This document shows positions 3,101-9,452 of a stretch of 63,898 nucleotides of DNA, piece by piece. The stretch is taken from assembly GCA_021846225.1 (NCBI GenBank), contig JAJZCG010000003.1, positions 1 through 63,898 on the forward strand, read 5' to 3'. The position numbers and the translations under genes are program-made. Under the pieces are notes generated by a model. The model searched no databases and was not told where the DNA came from. It worked only from the letters and a program-made list of their open reading frames with translations. Each line of letters opens with the position of its first letter. Position 1 is the stretch's first letter. This DNA comes from Pseudomonadota bacterium (lineage in GTDB: Bacteria > Pseudomonadota > Alphaproteobacteria > Acetobacterales > Acetobacteraceae).

Positions 3101-3358
3101 TTACCGATACGCCTCGCGGCGGTGTGCTATGCAGATCACCAGCACCGTCAACACGTCATCGTTCAAGGTGTAAATCACCCGCCAGTCACCCACCCGCAAC
3201 CTATAACCGGGCTGGCCTTGCAAGGCTTTTACGTTCACGGCTGATCGCGGATCGCTTCCGAGACCGGCCAAAGCTTTCAAGATGCGCTCTTGAACGGGCC
3301 GATCCAAGCCTCGCAGATCGCGCCGCGCGGCGGGCGCAATCTCTATCTGCCAGGACAA
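3101..3358 (-). CDS. RelE/ParE-family toxin
   Basis: An 85-residue basic protein with the RelE/ParE fold pattern: N-terminal IEIAPAARRDLRGLDRPVQ helix region, then KALQGQPGYRLRVGDWRVIY and a C-terminal VLVICIAHRREAYR. The GYRLRVGDWRVIY strand and the terminal HRREAYR are hallmarks of RelE-type mRNA interferases. The start is TTG 3358, two bases after the antitoxin stop, so translation is likely coupled. It is the second gene of a type II toxin-antitoxin pair located between the phage remnant and tRNA-Ser. The family is clear; the target is inferred. Confidence 0.88.
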   Translation of the reverse strand: MSWQIEIAPAARRDLRGLDRPVQERILKALAGLGSDPRSAVNVKALQGQPGYRLRVGDWRVIYTLNDDVLTVLVICIAHRREAYR

Positions 3359-3360
3359 GT

Positions 3361-3666
3361 TCAGGCCGCGTTCAGATCAATGCCCAGCTCGGCGGCAACT
3401 TCGGCCAAGGGAACGCCGCGCGGACGGCCGGCAGCTTCCCAGGCCGCAATCGCAGCGCCGCCCAACTGGGCGTCATGAGCATCCTCAATCGCCTCGAGGG
3501 CCTCATAGTCCTCTATCGGCACAATAGCGGCAACCGGCTTTCCGTCATGAGTGAGCACCACCCGCGCCTTGTCATGGGCCGCATGGTACAAAACCTCACC
3601 AAACCGCATCCCCGCGGACTCGGCCGAGATCACTTCATCGTTTAAGGGCGCCAGAACTGTGCTCAT
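3361..3666 (-). CDS. Phd/YefM-family antitoxin
   Basis: A 101-residue acidic protein started at ATG 3666 (a longer frame exists upstream but lacks family character). It has the Phd/YefM layout: an N-terminal DNA-binding part with ISAESAGMRFGEVLYHAAHD, then RVVLTHDGKPVAAIVPIEDY, and an acidic C-terminal toxin-neutralising tail. It lies directly upstream of the RelE-type toxin. Members of this family repress their own operon and are degraded to release the toxin; whether this pair is active cannot be read from sequence. Confidence 0.87.
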   Translation of the reverse strand: MSTVLAPLNDEVISAESAGMRFGEVLYHAAHDKARVVLTHDGKPVAAIVPIEDYEALEAIEDAHDAQLGGAAIAAWEAAGRPRGVPLAEVAAELGIDLNAA

Positions 3667-3992
3667 GGCCTCGATATAGGACACCTGCCCCGCCCGTGCG
3701 AGTGAAAAGCGCATTTGCTCAAACCACCCCCAGCCAGTGCCTCCACCAACATCGCCCACATGCCATCATCCCTGGCGCCGGGCATGACCCGGGCCAGCCG
3801 GCCAGGCGCGTGCGGTCACCAAAAAAGGGGCATTCCCTATCCAAGATCACGAAAACGTGATTTCGCTTTTATCGTTCGCTAGAGCCCGTAACACTTCACT
3901 AGATGCCGCCAAATAGGTGCCGGTAGAGGTGTAGGCTTTCAACTCCGTAACGATTTTTTTCTCTGTTAAATCAGACTTTTAATGGCTATTTT
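3667..3992. other. Intergenic stretch between the toxin-antitoxin pair and tRNA-Ser
   Basis: No gene seen. It holds the antitoxin 5' region and a perfect small inverted repeat, ATCACG-AAAA-CGTGAT (3849-3864). The repeat could be a hairpin or an operator, but no further copy was noticed near the antitoxin start. The part next to the tRNA is A/T-rich. Confidence 0.5.
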
Positions 3993-4082
3993 TGGCGGAG
4001 AGACAGGGATTCGAACCCTGGGTACGCTTTCACGCACACACGCTTTCCAAGCGTGCGCCTTAAGCCGCTCGGCCATCTCTCC
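3993..4082 (-). tRNA. tRNA-Ser (anticodon GGA)
   Basis: The minus strand folds as a 90-nt class II tRNA: acceptor stem GGAGAGA paired with TCTCTCC, discriminator G, encoded CCA (3993-3995). The D-arm contains TGGCCGAGCGGC, the anticodon loop is CTTGGAAAG giving GGA, and there is a long variable arm and the T-arm GGGTTCGAATCCC. The long variable arm and the GGA anticodon identify it as a serine tRNA. Its 3' end faces the phage-like block, the usual geometry for a tRNA used as an integration site. Confidence 0.96.
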
Positions 4083-4204
4083 CGCGCGGGGGCCTGCATA
4101 CCTAAACCCGGCGAATAGCTCAAGGGCACGGGAGCGGGAAAGCGCGCATATGCGTTGTTCTCTTTAAGGCTGAAGTTTATACATCCATTAACAAGGCAAG
4201 GTTG

Positions 4205-4954
4205 ATGGACAGCATTTTCGAGGTTTTTCCTGACTTAGGGGCGCTGGCGGACGGCCGTTTCGCTGGCGCTGCCTGCGCCAAGCCCACGATCATGATCGCC
4301 ATGACAGCGCGTACCGGCAGCACACATTTATGCGGCGCGCTCGCGGCGGCGGGCGATGTCGGCCGGCCGGGTGAGATATTCAACCCGCGCGGGGTGGCCA
4401 GGGCGGAGCGGGAGCGGCGCGGGGTGCGCTCATTCACCGATTATATGCGCTCCTTCAATGACGAACCCAGCCCGGTGTTCATCTTCAAAACCAACTGGCA
4501 GGATTTCGCCCCCTTCGCGCAGGACTGGCGCAGGCTCTTCCCCAACCTGCGCGTGGCGTATCTGGACCGCAAAAACCTAGCCGCCCAGGCTGTCTCGCTC
4601 TACCGGGCGCAGATCTCGGGAACCTGGCACCAACCGGCGCAGCAGGCGCGCGCAACCCCCGATGATCAGCGCCACAGCTTCGACCTCGCACGGATCTGCG
4701 CGCTCATGCAGGAGCTGAGTGCTGAGAAACAGGCGTGGGAGCGGTTTTTCAACGCCGAGGGCCTAACCCCGGCGCGGCTATTTTATGAGGATTTCCAGAA
4801 AGATGTGGGCATCGGGCTGGGTTTTCTGGCCCGGGAGATGAACCTCGGCCTGCGCCTGGAGGTGCCCCCCGGCACCGGCTTTGAGAAACTGGCGGACGCG
4901 CTGACCCTCGATTGGGTCGAGCGCGTGCAGCGGCATGTTTTACATATGACCTGA
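4205..4954 (+). CDS. Stf0-type sulfotransferase
   Basis: A 249-residue protein started at ATG 4205 (a TTG lies one codon upstream). The N-terminal MIAMTARTGSTHLCGALAAA is the 5'-phosphosulfate-binding loop of Stf0-like (trehalose 2-sulfotransferase type) enzymes, followed by GRPGEIFNPRG. The downstream VAYLDRKNLAAQAVSLYRA matches the 3'-phosphate-binding segment. The family transfers sulfate from PAPS to small carbohydrates or glycolipids. The substrate is unknown. It stands alone, upstream of a convergent transglycosylase gene. Confidence 0.8.
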   Translation: MDSIFEVFPDLGALADGRFAGAACAKPTIMIAMTARTGSTHLCGALAAAGDVGRPGEIFNPRGVARAERERRGVRSFTDYMRSFNDEPSPVFIFKTNWQDFAPFAQDWRRLFPNLRVAYLDRKNLAAQAVSLYRAQISGTWHQPAQQARATPDDQRHSFDLARICALMQELSAEKQAWERFFNAEGLTPARLFYEDFQKDVGIGLGFLAREMNLGLRLEVPPGTGFEKLADALTLDWVERVQRHVLHMT

Positions 4955-6468: not shown

Positions 6469-6840
6469 ATGCCGCTGAATCACCCCCGGAAAAACCTTTG
6501 TCTGGCTCTGCTGGGCGCCCTGCCCCTTCTCGCCGGCTGCGCCGCGCGCGCGCCGGTGCAACCCCTGGCGCAGACCTCACCGCTGCGCGGCCGGCTGAGC
6601 ACCGGCACCGTGATTGCCGTGCGCCCCGTGGACGTACCCGCCGGCAACGCCGCCTTGGCGCGGGTGCTCGCCGGGCTGGGCCAGCCCACGGCCAGCGATC
6701 CGCCGCCCGCCGAGGAGGTCGTCATCCGCCGCCCCGATTCCAGCGTCGTCTCCGTGGTTGAGGCGCGCCAGCCGGGCTTCTCCCCGGGGGAGCGCGTGAA
6801 CATCGCGGAAGCCGCGGCCACGGCGCTGCATCCTCAATAA
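6469..6840 (+). CDS. Small lipoprotein (SlyB/PcP-like)
   Basis: A 123-residue protein started at ATG 6469 (ATG 6454 is an alternative). It has a lipoprotein signal peptide: basic start, hydrophobic LCLALLGALPLL, lipobox LAGC. The mature part contains LSTGTVIAVRPVDV and ends with VVSVVEARQPGFSPGERVNI, reminiscent of SlyB-type outer-membrane lipoproteins, but the glycine-zipper middle segment typical of that family is missing or shortened. An IS1595-type transposon is inserted right behind its stop codon, with the last stop base inside the target duplication, so the protein itself is intact. Confidence 0.7.
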   Translation: MPLNHPRKNLCLALLGALPLLAGCAARAPVQPLAQTSPLRGRLSTGTVIAVRPVDVPAGNAALARVLAGLGQPTASDPPPAEEVVIRRPDSSVVSVVEARQPGFSPGERVNIAEAAATALHPQ

Positions 6841-6847
6841 TCCGAGA
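6840..6847 (+). repeat. Left 8-bp target site duplication (ATCCGAGA)
   Basis: ATCCGAGA occurs here and again at 9416-9423, directly flanking the terminal inverted repeats. The first base is the final A of the upstream lipoprotein stop codon. Eight-base duplications are characteristic of the IS1595 family. Confidence 0.88.
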
Positions 6848-6868
6848 CGGAACTATCTGGTTGCCTAA
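6848..6868 (+). repeat. Left terminal inverted repeat (IRL)
   Basis: Begins CGGAACTATC and matches the inverted right end at 17 of 21 positions. A TATAGT hexamer (6882-6887) with an upstream TTGCCT in the IRL (15-bp spacer) could be the transposase promoter. It sits only seven bases before the start codon, which would make the mRNA nearly leaderless. Confidence 0.8.
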
Positions 6869-6894
6869 ATAGGGCACAACCTATAGTATGAGGC

Positions 6895-7854
6895 ATGTCC
6901 ACCGGTATGTCGCTTCGCGCCTTCAACGACCTGTTCCCCGATGAGGACGCGGCGCGGGCTTGGTTCGAGCGTGCCCGCTGGCCGAATGGACCTGAGTGTT
7001 ACCATTGCCGCGTCGCCGGCAACGCCGCCTTCATGCCGAAAACTAAGTTTTGGCACTGCAAGGCGTGCAAGAAGCAGTTCAGTGTCACTGCTGGCACGCC
7101 AATGGGCCGCACACATTTGCCCCTACTGACGTGGGCGCACGCAATCTATCTGATCGTGGCTTCCAGCAAGGGCATCTCGGCCGCGAAACTGAGCGAGATG
7201 TTGGATGTCCAATACGCCACGGCATGGCACCTCGGGCACCGCATCCGCGCCATGATGGCCGAAGCCAACCCGATCCTCGCCGGAGTGGTGGAGATCGACG
7301 AGATGTATGCTGGTGCGCCGCCGCGCAAGCGTGCCAAGCCCTCTCGCGATCACGACGACACCGATCCACCAGCTAACCCGCAGGGACGCGGGACGAAGCG
7401 TCCGCTCGTGCTGGTCGCCGTGCAACGGGACGGTGACGTGGTGGCGAAGGTCATTCCAACGCACAGCAAAGCCGCCATCGCGGACGCGCTCGATGGGGTG
7501 CTCGATCCAGTTGCGACCGTGATGACGGACGGGCTTCCGGCCTACAAGCACATCGGCAAGACGCAACCTCACCTCGCGGTCAACCACTCGGGTCGCGAAT
7601 ACGCGCGCACCGACGCGGCGACCCGGCAGCGCGTCCACGTCAACCGGGTCGAGTCGTTCAACGGCTTCATGCGCCGTGCCATCATCGGCGTGTTCCACAA
7701 CGTCTCGGTCAAGCACCTTGGCCGCTACACGGGTGAGGCGACCTTCCGCTGGAACCGCAAGGCCGATGCGTGCCTCACCCGCATGGCGCGGCTGGTGGCG
7801 AACGGCGAAGGTCGCATGCTCTCCTACTCGTTCCTCACGGCAAAGGCCGCGTGA
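6895..7854 (+). CDS. IS1595/ISXO2-family DDE transposase
   Basis: A 319-residue transposase. An N-terminal zinc ribbon uses C35/C38 and C55/C58 (CYHC and CKAC). The DDE core shows D135 in VVEIDEMYAG, D212 in TVMTDGLPAY and E253 in HVNRVESFNGF, followed by GVFHNVSVKHLGRYTGEATF and RWNRK, the signature of the ISXO2-like DDE_Tnp_IS1595 family. It would bind the inverted repeats and move the element, producing 8-bp duplications as seen here. Its TGA (7852-7854) overlaps the ATG of the downstream nuclease gene. No disruption is visible. Confidence 0.95.
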   Translation: MSTGMSLRAFNDLFPDEDAARAWFERARWPNGPECYHCRVAGNAAFMPKTKFWHCKACKKQFSVTAGTPMGRTHLPLLTWAHAIYLIVASSKGISAAKLSEMLDVQYATAWHLGHRIRAMMAEANPILAGVVEIDEMYAGAPPRKRAKPSRDHDDTDPPANPQGRGTKRPLVLVAVQRDGDVVAKVIPTHSKAAIADALDGVLDPVATVMTDGLPAYKHIGKTQPHLAVNHSGREYARTDAATRQRVHVNRVESFNGFMRRAIIGVFHNVSVKHLGRYTGEATFRWNRKADACLTRMARLVANGEGRMLSYSFLTAKAA

Positions 7855-9398
7855 TGGCGCGCAAGCCCAAGGGCACCATACCTCCGGTGATGCGCTGCGA
7901 CTTGTTGCCGTCGAATATGACGGCGAGCAAGGAAGCACAGGTGCGCACCGTGCTCGCCGCCTACCGTTCAGCCGCGGTCATGCTGGCACGCGAGCATTGG
8001 CGCCTGTTCTTCGAGACAGGCCGGTTCAACAAGAACTACGACGCCGACAAGGTGACGTTCGTCGCCGTCATCGGTGCTGCCAACCGCGTGCAGATGTGCC
8101 GCTGGCAAGTCGTCGGCCAGCTTGATTCGTGGCTGAGCAACCGCGCCAACGAGTTCCGTTCTGCCGTCACTCACAGCACACTCGATCCCGACACCAAGCA
8201 CATGCTATTCGTCGTCAACTGGCTTGGTGCTTGGTTCGCGCGGCGCGAGATCGCCATGAAGGAAACGGGCGAGATCATTCCCGCTCACGCGCTGGCGCTG
8301 GCGCGCTCGATCATGCGCGGCATCATGCGGCGGCATCGCCGCCCGAACCTGCGCCACATTTCCATGCGGCTCGATCATCGCGCCGCCTGCCTCGCGGCTC
8401 CGAACAAGGCCACGCAGGACGGGAATGTGGGTTGGTGGGTCAACCTGTCCACCATGACCAAGGGCATCAAGATCGCAGTTCCGCTTCTGACCTACGAACG
8501 GCACGAAAATCGCAGAGGGCAGGTGAGCAACGGTGTGCTCGTCACCGAGGACCGCGACACCGGCAAGCTCATGTTCGGCGTTGTCACCGACATCGGCGCG
8601 GACTGCGTCGCCAGTCGCGCCGCCTACAAGCCCGAACGCGAGTTGGTGGCACTCGACTTCGGCCTGTCCACACTGTTCGCCGCCGATGACGGCGCGCTGC
8701 TCGGCAAGGGCTGGCTCACTGCGTTGCGCGGCTACGACCGCCGCATCTCCGAGATCGCCCGAGGCCAGCAGCGGCATGGCCGCAAGCCGCGCGACAGCGC
8801 CCGTTACAGGCGGGCCGTGACGGCACTGCGGGGTTGGATTAGGACCGAGGTTGGGCGCGTCCTGAACGCGCTCGTGGCCGCGAAGCGGCCTGCGTCTCTC
8901 GTGCTCGAACGGCTGAACTTCCAAAATCCGGCACTGTCGCGCCGGCTCAATCGCATCATCCAGAACTGCGGCCGCGCCGTTATCGGGGCCAAGCTGGTTG
9001 ATTTCAAAGATCGCTTCGGCATCACTTCCGATGAGGTGAACCCGGCTTATACGTCGCAGACCTGTTCTTGCTGCGGCTACGTGGACAAGCGAAATCGCCC
9101 ATCGCAGGGCACCTTTCGGTGCCTGTGGTGCGGCCAACGAATGCACGCCGATGTCAATGCGGCACGGAATATCGGGCAGCGCCGTGCGCTGCCTATCGGT
9201 TCCGTGTTCCAGTCGAAGGCGTCTGTCCTCGCTGATCTGGTGCGCCAGTTCGGCGAGCGAAGGGTGCTGAGCACCCGATCCGGTGGGAGGGGTTCCACCG
9301 CCGACCCGAGATCGACCAATCCCTACTTCGGTGGCGAACGGACGAAATCGGCCCGGATGTCGAAATCTAGGCTGCTACCAGATTTGGTGGCCGCTTAG
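7854..9398 (+). CDS. tnpB: TnpB-like RNA-guided-nuclease-family protein (RuvC plus zinc ribbon)
   Basis: A 514-residue protein whose ATG shares one base with the transposase stop. It has the full split RuvC triad of TnpB/Cas12-type nucleases: D268 in LVALDFGLSTLF (RuvC-I), E352 in LVLERLNF (RuvC-II) and D433 in HADVNAARNI (RuvC-III). A zinc ribbon between the last two uses C404/C407 and C423/C426. At 514 residues it is longer than ordinary TnpB (about 400) and carries a basic tail of about 70 residues after RuvC-III. The stop codon lies inside the right inverted repeat. Known relatives cut DNA guided by an RNA from the element end; activity here is inferred. Confidence 0.9.
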   Translation: MARKPKGTIPPVMRCDLLPSNMTASKEAQVRTVLAAYRSAAVMLAREHWRLFFETGRFNKNYDADKVTFVAVIGAANRVQMCRWQVVGQLDSWLSNRANEFRSAVTHSTLDPDTKHMLFVVNWLGAWFARREIAMKETGEIIPAHALALARSIMRGIMRRHRRPNLRHISMRLDHRAACLAAPNKATQDGNVGWWVNLSTMTKGIKIAVPLLTYERHENRRGQVSNGVLVTEDRDTGKLMFGVVTDIGADCVASRAAYKPERELVALDFGLSTLFAADDGALLGKGWLTALRGYDRRISEIARGQQRHGRKPRDSARYRRAVTALRGWIRTEVGRVLNALVAAKRPASLVLERLNFQNPALSRRLNRIIQNCGRAVIGAKLVDFKDRFGITSDEVNPAYTSQTCSCCGYVDKRNRPSQGTFRCLWCGQRMHADVNAARNIGQRRALPIGSVFQSKASVLADLVRQFGERRVLSTRSGGRGSTADPRSTNPYFGGERTKSARMSKSRLLPDLVAA

Positions 9399-9415
9399 TC
9401 AACTCGATAGTTCCC
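9262..9415 (+). ncRNA. Candidate guide (omega/reRNA-type) RNA scaffold at the element right end
   Basis: Within the last coding part of the nuclease gene two hairpins lie side by side: GGGTGC-TGA-GCACCC (9262-9276) and CGGTGG-N8-CCACCG (9281-9300). From the first hairpin to the element end is 154 nt, similar to the scaffold length of TnpB-associated RNAs, which overlap the 3' end of tnpB and run through the right end into flanking DNA used as guide. The guide would then begin at 9416 with ATCCGAGATAATGG. This is a prediction from position and folding only. Confidence 0.4.
9395..9415 (-). repeat. Right terminal inverted repeat (IRR)
   Basis: Read on the minus strand it begins GGGAACTATCGAGTTGACTA and aligns with the left end (17 of 21). 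It contains the TAG stop (9396-9398) of the TnpB-like gene, so coding sequence and transposon end overlap. Confidence 0.82.
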
Positions 9416-9423
9416 ATCCGAGA
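9416..9423 (+). repeat. Right 8-bp target site duplication (ATCCGAGA)
   Basis: Exact copy of 6840-6847, immediately outside the right inverted repeat. Confidence 0.88.
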
Positions 9424-9452
9424 TAATGGCTTAACAACCCGTCATGCGGCGC

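Follow-up and report, generated by a model that had tools for sequence, protein, structure and literature searches.

What does a TnpB-type nuclease do inside an insertion sequence that is moved by a DDE transposase, and where did it come from? The question is raised by an element of 2,568 bp at positions 6848-9415 of a 63,898-nucleotide stretch of Acetobacteraceae DNA (assembly GCA_021846225.1, contig JAJZCG010000003.1; this whole stretch is called the window), in which a transposase gene and a tnpB gene lie between the same terminal repeats. Our comparisons of the element, its relatives and their insertion sites make it likely that it is a DDE insertion sequence with a captured IS607-like TnpB, and that RNA-guided cutting of empty sites by this nuclease would serve the retention and drive of the element.

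An IS1595-family element with two overlapping genes

The element begins with CGGAACTATC and ends with GATAGTTCCC. Its inverted repeats are complementary at 17 of 20 positions (6849-6868 and 9395-9414), and an exact 8-bp duplication, ATCCGAGA, lies directly outside both ends. In a brute-force search for exact 8-bp duplications adjoining inverted ends, this pair ranked first of the six listed, with 17 of 24 inverted-repeat positions against 11 of 24 for the next. The right flank, queried against 38 genomes of the genus, matched 12 loci, five of which were compared; the flanks joined with one copy of the duplication matched all five congeners, ungapped across the junction in L267 (94% over 399 bp) and L268 (91% over 400 bp). 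Because the joined flanks match uninterrupted sites in congeners, the element is a true insertion.

The transposase matched PF12762 (2.3e-32) and PF12760 (6.5e-11), the ISXO2-like DDE domain and an N-terminal zinc ribbon, and scored 165 bits against NF033547, the cut-off of which is 75. Residues D135, D212 and E253 were in register across 17 aligned transposases of our choosing. The transposase domains, the DDE residues, the 8-bp duplication and the terminal inverted repeats are all shared with ISPepr2, ISRm32 and their kin, and the sequence thus confirms 6848-9415 as an IS1595-family DDE insertion sequence. The hallmarks of IS607 and IS200/IS605 elements, a serine recombinase or a Y1 TnpA within the element and no duplication, were not found.

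The stop codon of the transposase gene shares a single base with the start codon of tnpB (TGATG). The TnpB protein matched PF07282 above the gathering score (1.3e-16) and the NCBIfam profile NF040570, 'guided_TnpB', at 7.9e-21; its 74.8 bits against a cut-off of 100 mark it as a distant member of that family, the profile of which was matched by all 12 relatives at E < 0.001. The RuvC residues D268, E352 and D433 and the zinc-ribbon cysteines C404, C407, C423 and C426 are intact and invariant in 12 aligned TnpBs, including that of the window, to which the others are 42-78% identical. A nuclease-dead TnpB was ruled out, the catalytic triad being invariant in 12 of 12. Sequence matches in the PDB were Cas12f and TnpB proteins, with other Cas12 proteins lower down. 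The predicted structure, of moderate quality (predicted local distance difference test, pLDDT, 67.9; predicted TM-score, pTM, 0.52), had the fold of TnpB and Cas12f proteins, its best match being AsCas12f (8j12_A, 2.5e-12, TM-score 0.39-0.45), with ISFba1 TnpB (8iaz) at 1.6e-10 and TM-scores overall of about 0.4-0.5. From its sequence, this TnpB-type nuclease is probably RNA-guided.

A first reading of this DNA (the sequence-only reading) had claimed that inverted repeats and an exact 8-bp duplication bound the element, that it carries a DDE transposase with the three residues named above, and that the transposase stop codon overlaps the start of an intact TnpB-like gene. The repeats, the top-ranked duplication and the empty sites in congeners bear out the first of these claims, and the profile scores and alignments the other two. 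The features of the element are collected in the table.

Table. Features of the IS1595-TnpB element and its flanks in the window
Feature	Coordinates	Strand	Basis
TA flanking the left duplication (here AATA), putative transposon-associated motif of TnpB	6838..6839	+	direct sequence
Left copy of the 8-bp target duplication ATCCGAGA	6840..6847	.	uninterrupted in congeners
Left terminal inverted repeat (left end, LE)	6848..6868	+	17/20 complementary
IS1595-family DDE transposase, 319 aa, N-terminal zinc ribbon	6895..7854	+	D135, D212, E253; profile matches
TnpB-type RuvC nuclease, 514 aa	7854..9398	+	1-nt start/stop overlap; profiles, alignment, fold match
Putative omega-RNA (reRNA) scaffold, overlapping the tnpB 3' end and the right end	9246..9415	+	alignment, folding, covarying hairpin; outer limits inferred
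Right terminal inverted repeat (right end, RE)	9395..9415	-	inverted-repeat search
Right copy of the duplication; predicted guide positions 1-8	9416..9423	.	direct sequence
Putative guide, duplication plus 12 nt of right flank	9416..9435	+	same 20 nt after CAATA at the empty site of congener G960

Recurrence and ancestry of the pairing

We then gathered 21 loci with close relatives of the TnpB. A collection of species genomes gave 14, a first scan of viral contigs one, a second such scan one (L230), plasmid records four (at least 46.8%) and a phylum sample one (L227, refetched as L260). The 31 matches of the second viral scan were the contig of L045 again, L230 and 29 distant or partial ones. 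Extra copies in genomes G201, G202 and G206 and C-terminal fragments in G094 were left out of the set.

An IS1595 transposase or its remnant lay upstream of TnpB in 17 of the 21 loci and was not found at L029, L031, L036 and L044. None of the 21 matched an IS607 transposase with the two IS607 queries used, and a Y1 gene was seen at one locus only, L035, about 1.6 kb away and outside the element. The sequence-only reading had named an association of the nuclease mostly with Y1 or IS607 transposases as the finding that would speak against it, and this was not what the loci held; its expectation that both genes share the same terminal repeats in related genomes held as well. Besides the window, ten loci had the pair within the same repeats and an exact 8-bp duplication, although the transposase was shortened in L024 and the tnpB frame was broken in L033, L038 and L042. 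The duplications around the paired elements L025 and L260 were imperfect (6/8 and 7/8).

The hosts, Alphaproteobacteria among them, include Acidocella, Parvibaculum, Indioceanicola, Salipiger, Marivita, Paracoccus, Caenispirillum and Methylacidimicrobium, and metagenome-assembled genomes (MAGs) labelled Trueperaceae and Gemmatimonadetes. The element is rare: among 385 genomes of the class only that of the window had a TnpB match (E up to 1e-40), and matches were present in three of 398 genomes of the phylum, the window's own included (E up to 1e-20). One of these three (L228/L261) is a TnpB-only element of 1,589 bp (L261, G627:C1:579500-586500, corresponding to L228 1433-3021) with inverted repeats complementary at 18 of 20 positions and an exact 8-bp duplication, AAGATTAT, preceded by GGTAA at the left flank; an IS1595 transposase was not found in that genome at E 1e-5.

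The two genes overlap or abut at 10 of the 14 readable junctions (the window, L023, L032, L033, L034, L035, L037, L038, L039 and L045) and are separated by about 40-70 nt in the other four (L040-L043), distances that depend on the start codons judged likely. Internal deletion derivatives were also seen, in which part of the transposase (L024 4516-6551, L164 752-1876 and L230 around 3330-4483) and, for L164 and L230, part of tnpB is lost; the two ends and the tnpB 3' terminus, from which the putative RNA would arise, are retained in all three. Genome G206 (MAG WY1.bin119) contained many element fragments, mostly at contig ends, and its assembly seems to be broken by them.

The phylogeny of the transposases, rooted for drawing only, placed the TnpB-bearing ones in one clade of 12 (Shimodaira-Hasegawa-like approximate likelihood ratio test, SH-aLRT, 92), or of 14 with L163 and L030 (95), the sister of which comprised 10 TnpB-less transposases with ISPepr2 and ISRm32 kin (97). 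The sequence-only reading had called for a TnpB tree to see whether these nucleases form one clade. In the tree that we built from TnpBs, with no Fanzors among the taxa, the IS1595-linked TnpBs grouped with IS607-type TnpBs apart from 11 others (support 100/99); a single origin of the IS1595-linked ones is compatible with the tree, at a weak support of 51/68. The nearest TnpBs outside the family, about 34% identical, stand beside IS607 or resolvase-like genes. The best explanation of these sequences is that the TnpB is of IS607-like ancestry, was captured by an IS1595 element and has been kept as a coupled second gene.

In genome G202, the loci L163 and L164 have an IS1595 transposase that belongs to this clade, and the gene after it encodes a different TnpB, decayed and of the OrfB_IS605 type. 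The TnpB of L164 matched PF01385 (3.8e-8) and PF07282 (5e-8) and that of L163 gave only a sub-threshold match to PF12323 (0.0059). Such loci suggest that TnpB has been exchanged, or acquired on more than one occasion. The deletion derivative L164 has an exact duplication, GTGCTGTC, preceded by TA.

The left-flank motif and the putative right-end RNA

Should the guide begin with the base that follows the right end, the transposon-associated motif (TAM) of TnpB would lie directly to the left of the duplication. This idea was noted when three sites had been read, and left ends read later were counted separately. A TA just outside the left duplication was present at 29 of 31 left ends overall and at 26 of the 28 read after the idea was noted. 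The main count comprised 29 left ends, namely 11 whose exact duplication was read within a single locus, the window among them, L025 and 17 copies known from the left end only, and 27 of these had the TA (24 of 26 among the later ones); two left ends added afterwards, L230 (right duplication differs) and L260, both had it. For the 17 left-end-only copies, ends that precede a tnpA start were chosen by visual inspection with the flank visible, and the two misses among the counts were kept; six of their duplications could be matched by 8 bp to right ends on other contigs. In the 29 left ends, position -11 was A or G in 26, position -12 was G in 17 and the first base of the duplication was A or T in 28, the remaining positions being near random. 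A near-fixed motif is thus found beside the left end, and its reading as a TnpB motif is putative.

Loci without a readable left end (L029, L031, L032, L036, L037, L040 and L044) were left out of the motif count, as were L035, which has a mutated left end, no duplication and, by eye, TA at the corresponding position, L030 (disrupted; TA), L174, which showed neither TnpB nor duplication and has no TA, and the second lineage, L164 (TA) and L163 (not TA).

The mirror position of the right flank had TA in 7 of 42 cases (left versus right, Fisher 5e-11), and the background frequency of TA was 0.041 in the same flanks and 0.018 in the window. Unlike the paired elements, IS1595 controls that have a duplication and repeats and no TnpB had TA on either side at the same spacing, 5 of 19 on the left and 4 of 19 on the right (left TA versus the TnpB clade, Fisher 1e-6). 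Six of the 19 lie in one recurrent target, in both orientations, and without these the left TA count is 2 of 13 (Fisher 7e-7). TnpB was not seen in the controls by tblastn, those of 1.0-1.8 kb being too short for it and the reading frames of the longer ones having been inspected. The controls exclude L173 and L215 for doubtful repeats, L220 and L221 for want of a duplication, three repeats of one site and the class-level loci at which no duplication was found (23 of 29), as well as L163, L168, L170-L172, L174, L176, L213 and L214, which gave none.

Nine ISRm32-like elements on Sinorhizobium and Ensifer plasmids (L209, L211, L216, L218, L219 and L222-L225) recur in both orientations at a single repeated target (GCATA / ATGTATCR and the reverse of it). 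Six other TnpB-less IS1595 elements, of 1.7-2.35 kb (L192, L197, L198, L203, L204 and L205), have other reading frames beside the transposase, inside the same repeats and duplication.

The last 170-190 nt of the element aligned in 25 copies with a mean column identity of 68%, and in the window this stretch folded better than its shuffles (z -2.84). The pairing of a hairpin upstream of the right end was kept through changes of sequence and length, and swapping its arms between copies lowered the pairing (exact permutation p 0.0008, on seven long arm types, of which two are nearly identical). Many copies also show a stem between the right repeat and an inner stretch. No Rfam family matched the putative right-end RNA above threshold, one sub-threshold match being to sR40.

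The putative guide, the length of which was taken from ISDra2 (about 16 nt), could be compared with the empty sites of congeners. The equivalent 20 nt matched at 20 of 20 positions in L267, 18 in L268, 16 in L270 and 15 in L269, each after CAATA, and at fewer than 15 of 20 in L271, so that the motif and 15-20 of the 20 guide positions were present in four of the five congeners examined.

Weighing the roles of TnpB

The likeliest function of this TnpB, judged from these sequences, would be RNA-guided cleavage of the site lacking the element, adapted to a DDE transposon and serving to keep or spread it. An omega-RNA would be transcribed from the right end and the tnpB 3' terminus, its guide extending into the right duplication and flank and the duplication supplying the first 8 guide bases. 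TnpB would cut copies of the site that lack the element, with TA (mostly R-TA, R being a purine) as the motif, and host recombination would restore the element from a filled sister or plasmid; the element would thereby survive losses caused by its transposase and spread into alleles that lack it. Most of the copies read have CCC as the last bases of the right end, the others mainly CCT, CCA, CTC or ACC. Since these bases, and not TA, stand in place of the motif on the right, and the left side shares just 8 bp with the guide, the filled site would escape cutting. In favour of this reading are its agreement with the known TnpB mechanism, the left-end TA counts against those of the right flanks and the TnpB-less controls, the invariant active-site residues, the covarying hairpin arms and the empty sites of congeners.

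This mechanism is close to that of ISDra2, whose right-end RNA and about 16 nt of flank guide TnpB to cut beside the motif adjoining the element's insertion (passages of PMC8612924). Here the same arrangement is proposed from sequence, with the differences that Y1 single-strand transposition of ISDra2 makes no duplication and that in our element the 8-bp duplication lies between motif and element and would form part of the guide. ISXfa1, as described in PMC10711439, differs from the arrangement proposed here, its motif being GGG and its scaffold taking in the first base of the flank. According to PMC11870625, an element can be driven through populations of plasmids when its TnpB cuts the copies that lack it. 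The sequence parts that ISDra2-type guiding and plasmid drive would require are present in the window. As for the different retention or homing strategy suggested by the sequence-only reading, the pairing with a DDE transposase stands, and the flanks fit the known logic of TAM and guide moved to a DDE element rather than a new strategy.

Several results weigh against a guided-cutting role, and the evidence for the RNA is mixed. Folding of the right end was not unusual relative to shuffles in L045 (z -0.87) and L023 (z -0.46), the swap test of the right-end stem gave p 0.088 on seven arm types (p 0.009 earlier, with the row of L039 misplaced), RNAalifold found compensated pairs at 2 of 16, and a codon-preserving (synonymous) shuffle test of 12 loci gave no consistent signal and was not significant overall. 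The left ends of L159 and L161 lack the TA, as does that of L163, a related element with a different decayed TnpB, and most left-end-only copies come from fragmented genomes in which tnpB is on no shared contig. TA in the right flanks is slightly above background (p 0.0015 to 0.015). The TnpB-less sister clade gave a weaker contrast than the other controls, with TA on the left in 5 of 10 and on the right in 4 of 10 (versus the TnpB clade, Fisher 0.0055), so the TA may be partly the choice of the transposase itself.

The strongest competitor, to which we give an appreciable though minority probability, is that the transposase alone picks R-TA sites and their orientation, the TnpB motif merely matching this choice or TnpB being a passenger. 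It draws on the use of TTGAT by ISDra2 TnpA itself (passages of PMC8612924) and on the sister-clade counts, obtained at the same spacing, although six of those ten lie in one recurrent target. A DDE transposase pair that produces a symmetric 8-bp duplication should recognise the two sides in the same way, and TA is indeed about equally frequent on the two sides of TnpB-less elements, yet is found almost only on the left in the TnpB clade. From the control counts, the ancestral transposase may favour TA on either side, and the TnpB clade shows it on one. By analogy with ISDra2, where TnpA and TnpB share a motif and TnpB still cuts, transposase choice need not exclude guided cutting.

We regard it as unlikely that TnpB takes part in target choice, breaking the symmetry of the DDE reaction and thereby confining insertions, as they form or as they survive, to sites with R-TA on the left; if it did, each new copy would have a working guide and motif upon landing. 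More doubtful is a recruiting role, in which TnpB, guided or not, would bind R-TA, bring the transposase and fix both site and orientation. The one-sided motif and the overlapping or abutting genes (10 of 14 junctions, with short gaps in the other four) would fit such a role, but the guide matches the present flank and therefore cannot choose a new site by base pairing, no fusion or contact was seen, and we know of no TnpB that recruits a transposase to its targets.

We consider it quite improbable that TnpB has no role in cutting and is either carried along inertly or represses the transposase. Stops or frameshifts in several tnpB copies (L033, L038, L040 and L042) would agree with this, but the RuvC and zinc residues are invariant over the range of identities given above and the one-sided motif would be left unexplained. 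Finally, two unrelated neighbours or a nested insertion, which the sole copy of the element in its own genome (the only match there) might suggest, are ruled out for practical purposes by the ungapped empty site and by the recurrence of the same gene order, ends and duplication in other genomes.

Among known systems, IS607 elements of Thermus and Bifidobacterium plasmids and of Thermus phage TMA carry the nearest outside TnpBs in the same gene order, but with an IS607 or resolvase-like transposase, as annotated. Fanzor1 elements resemble ours in the capture of a TnpB-like nuclease by a DDE element; they include Mariner and hAT transposons and an IS4-type element of Ectocarpus and its virus with an 8-bp target-site duplication (parts of PMC3627910 and PMC10711439). 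Those are eukaryotic or of eukaryotic viruses, whereas the present element is a bacterial IS1595 with a TnpB near those of IS607. TnpB is treated as a matter of IS605, IS607 and IS1341 in sections of PMC9956272, and its restriction to IS200/605 and IS607 is named an open question in sections of PMC10711439. No description of a prokaryotic DDE-TnpB element was recognised in open-access full text, the search covering neither ISfinder nor most subscription literature.

These results suggest that TnpB nucleases pair with more kinds of bacterial jumping genes than the searched literature describes. They predict a short TAM (R-TA) for one TnpB lineage and show how a guide could be built from a target duplication. 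The system is experimentally approachable because it offers a bacterial TnpB on a DDE element, a one-sided motif, many copies and TnpB-less sisters.

Elsewhere in the window, two adjacent small reading frames on the minus strand (3101-3759) resemble, from their translations, a toxin-antitoxin pair of the RelE/RelB type.

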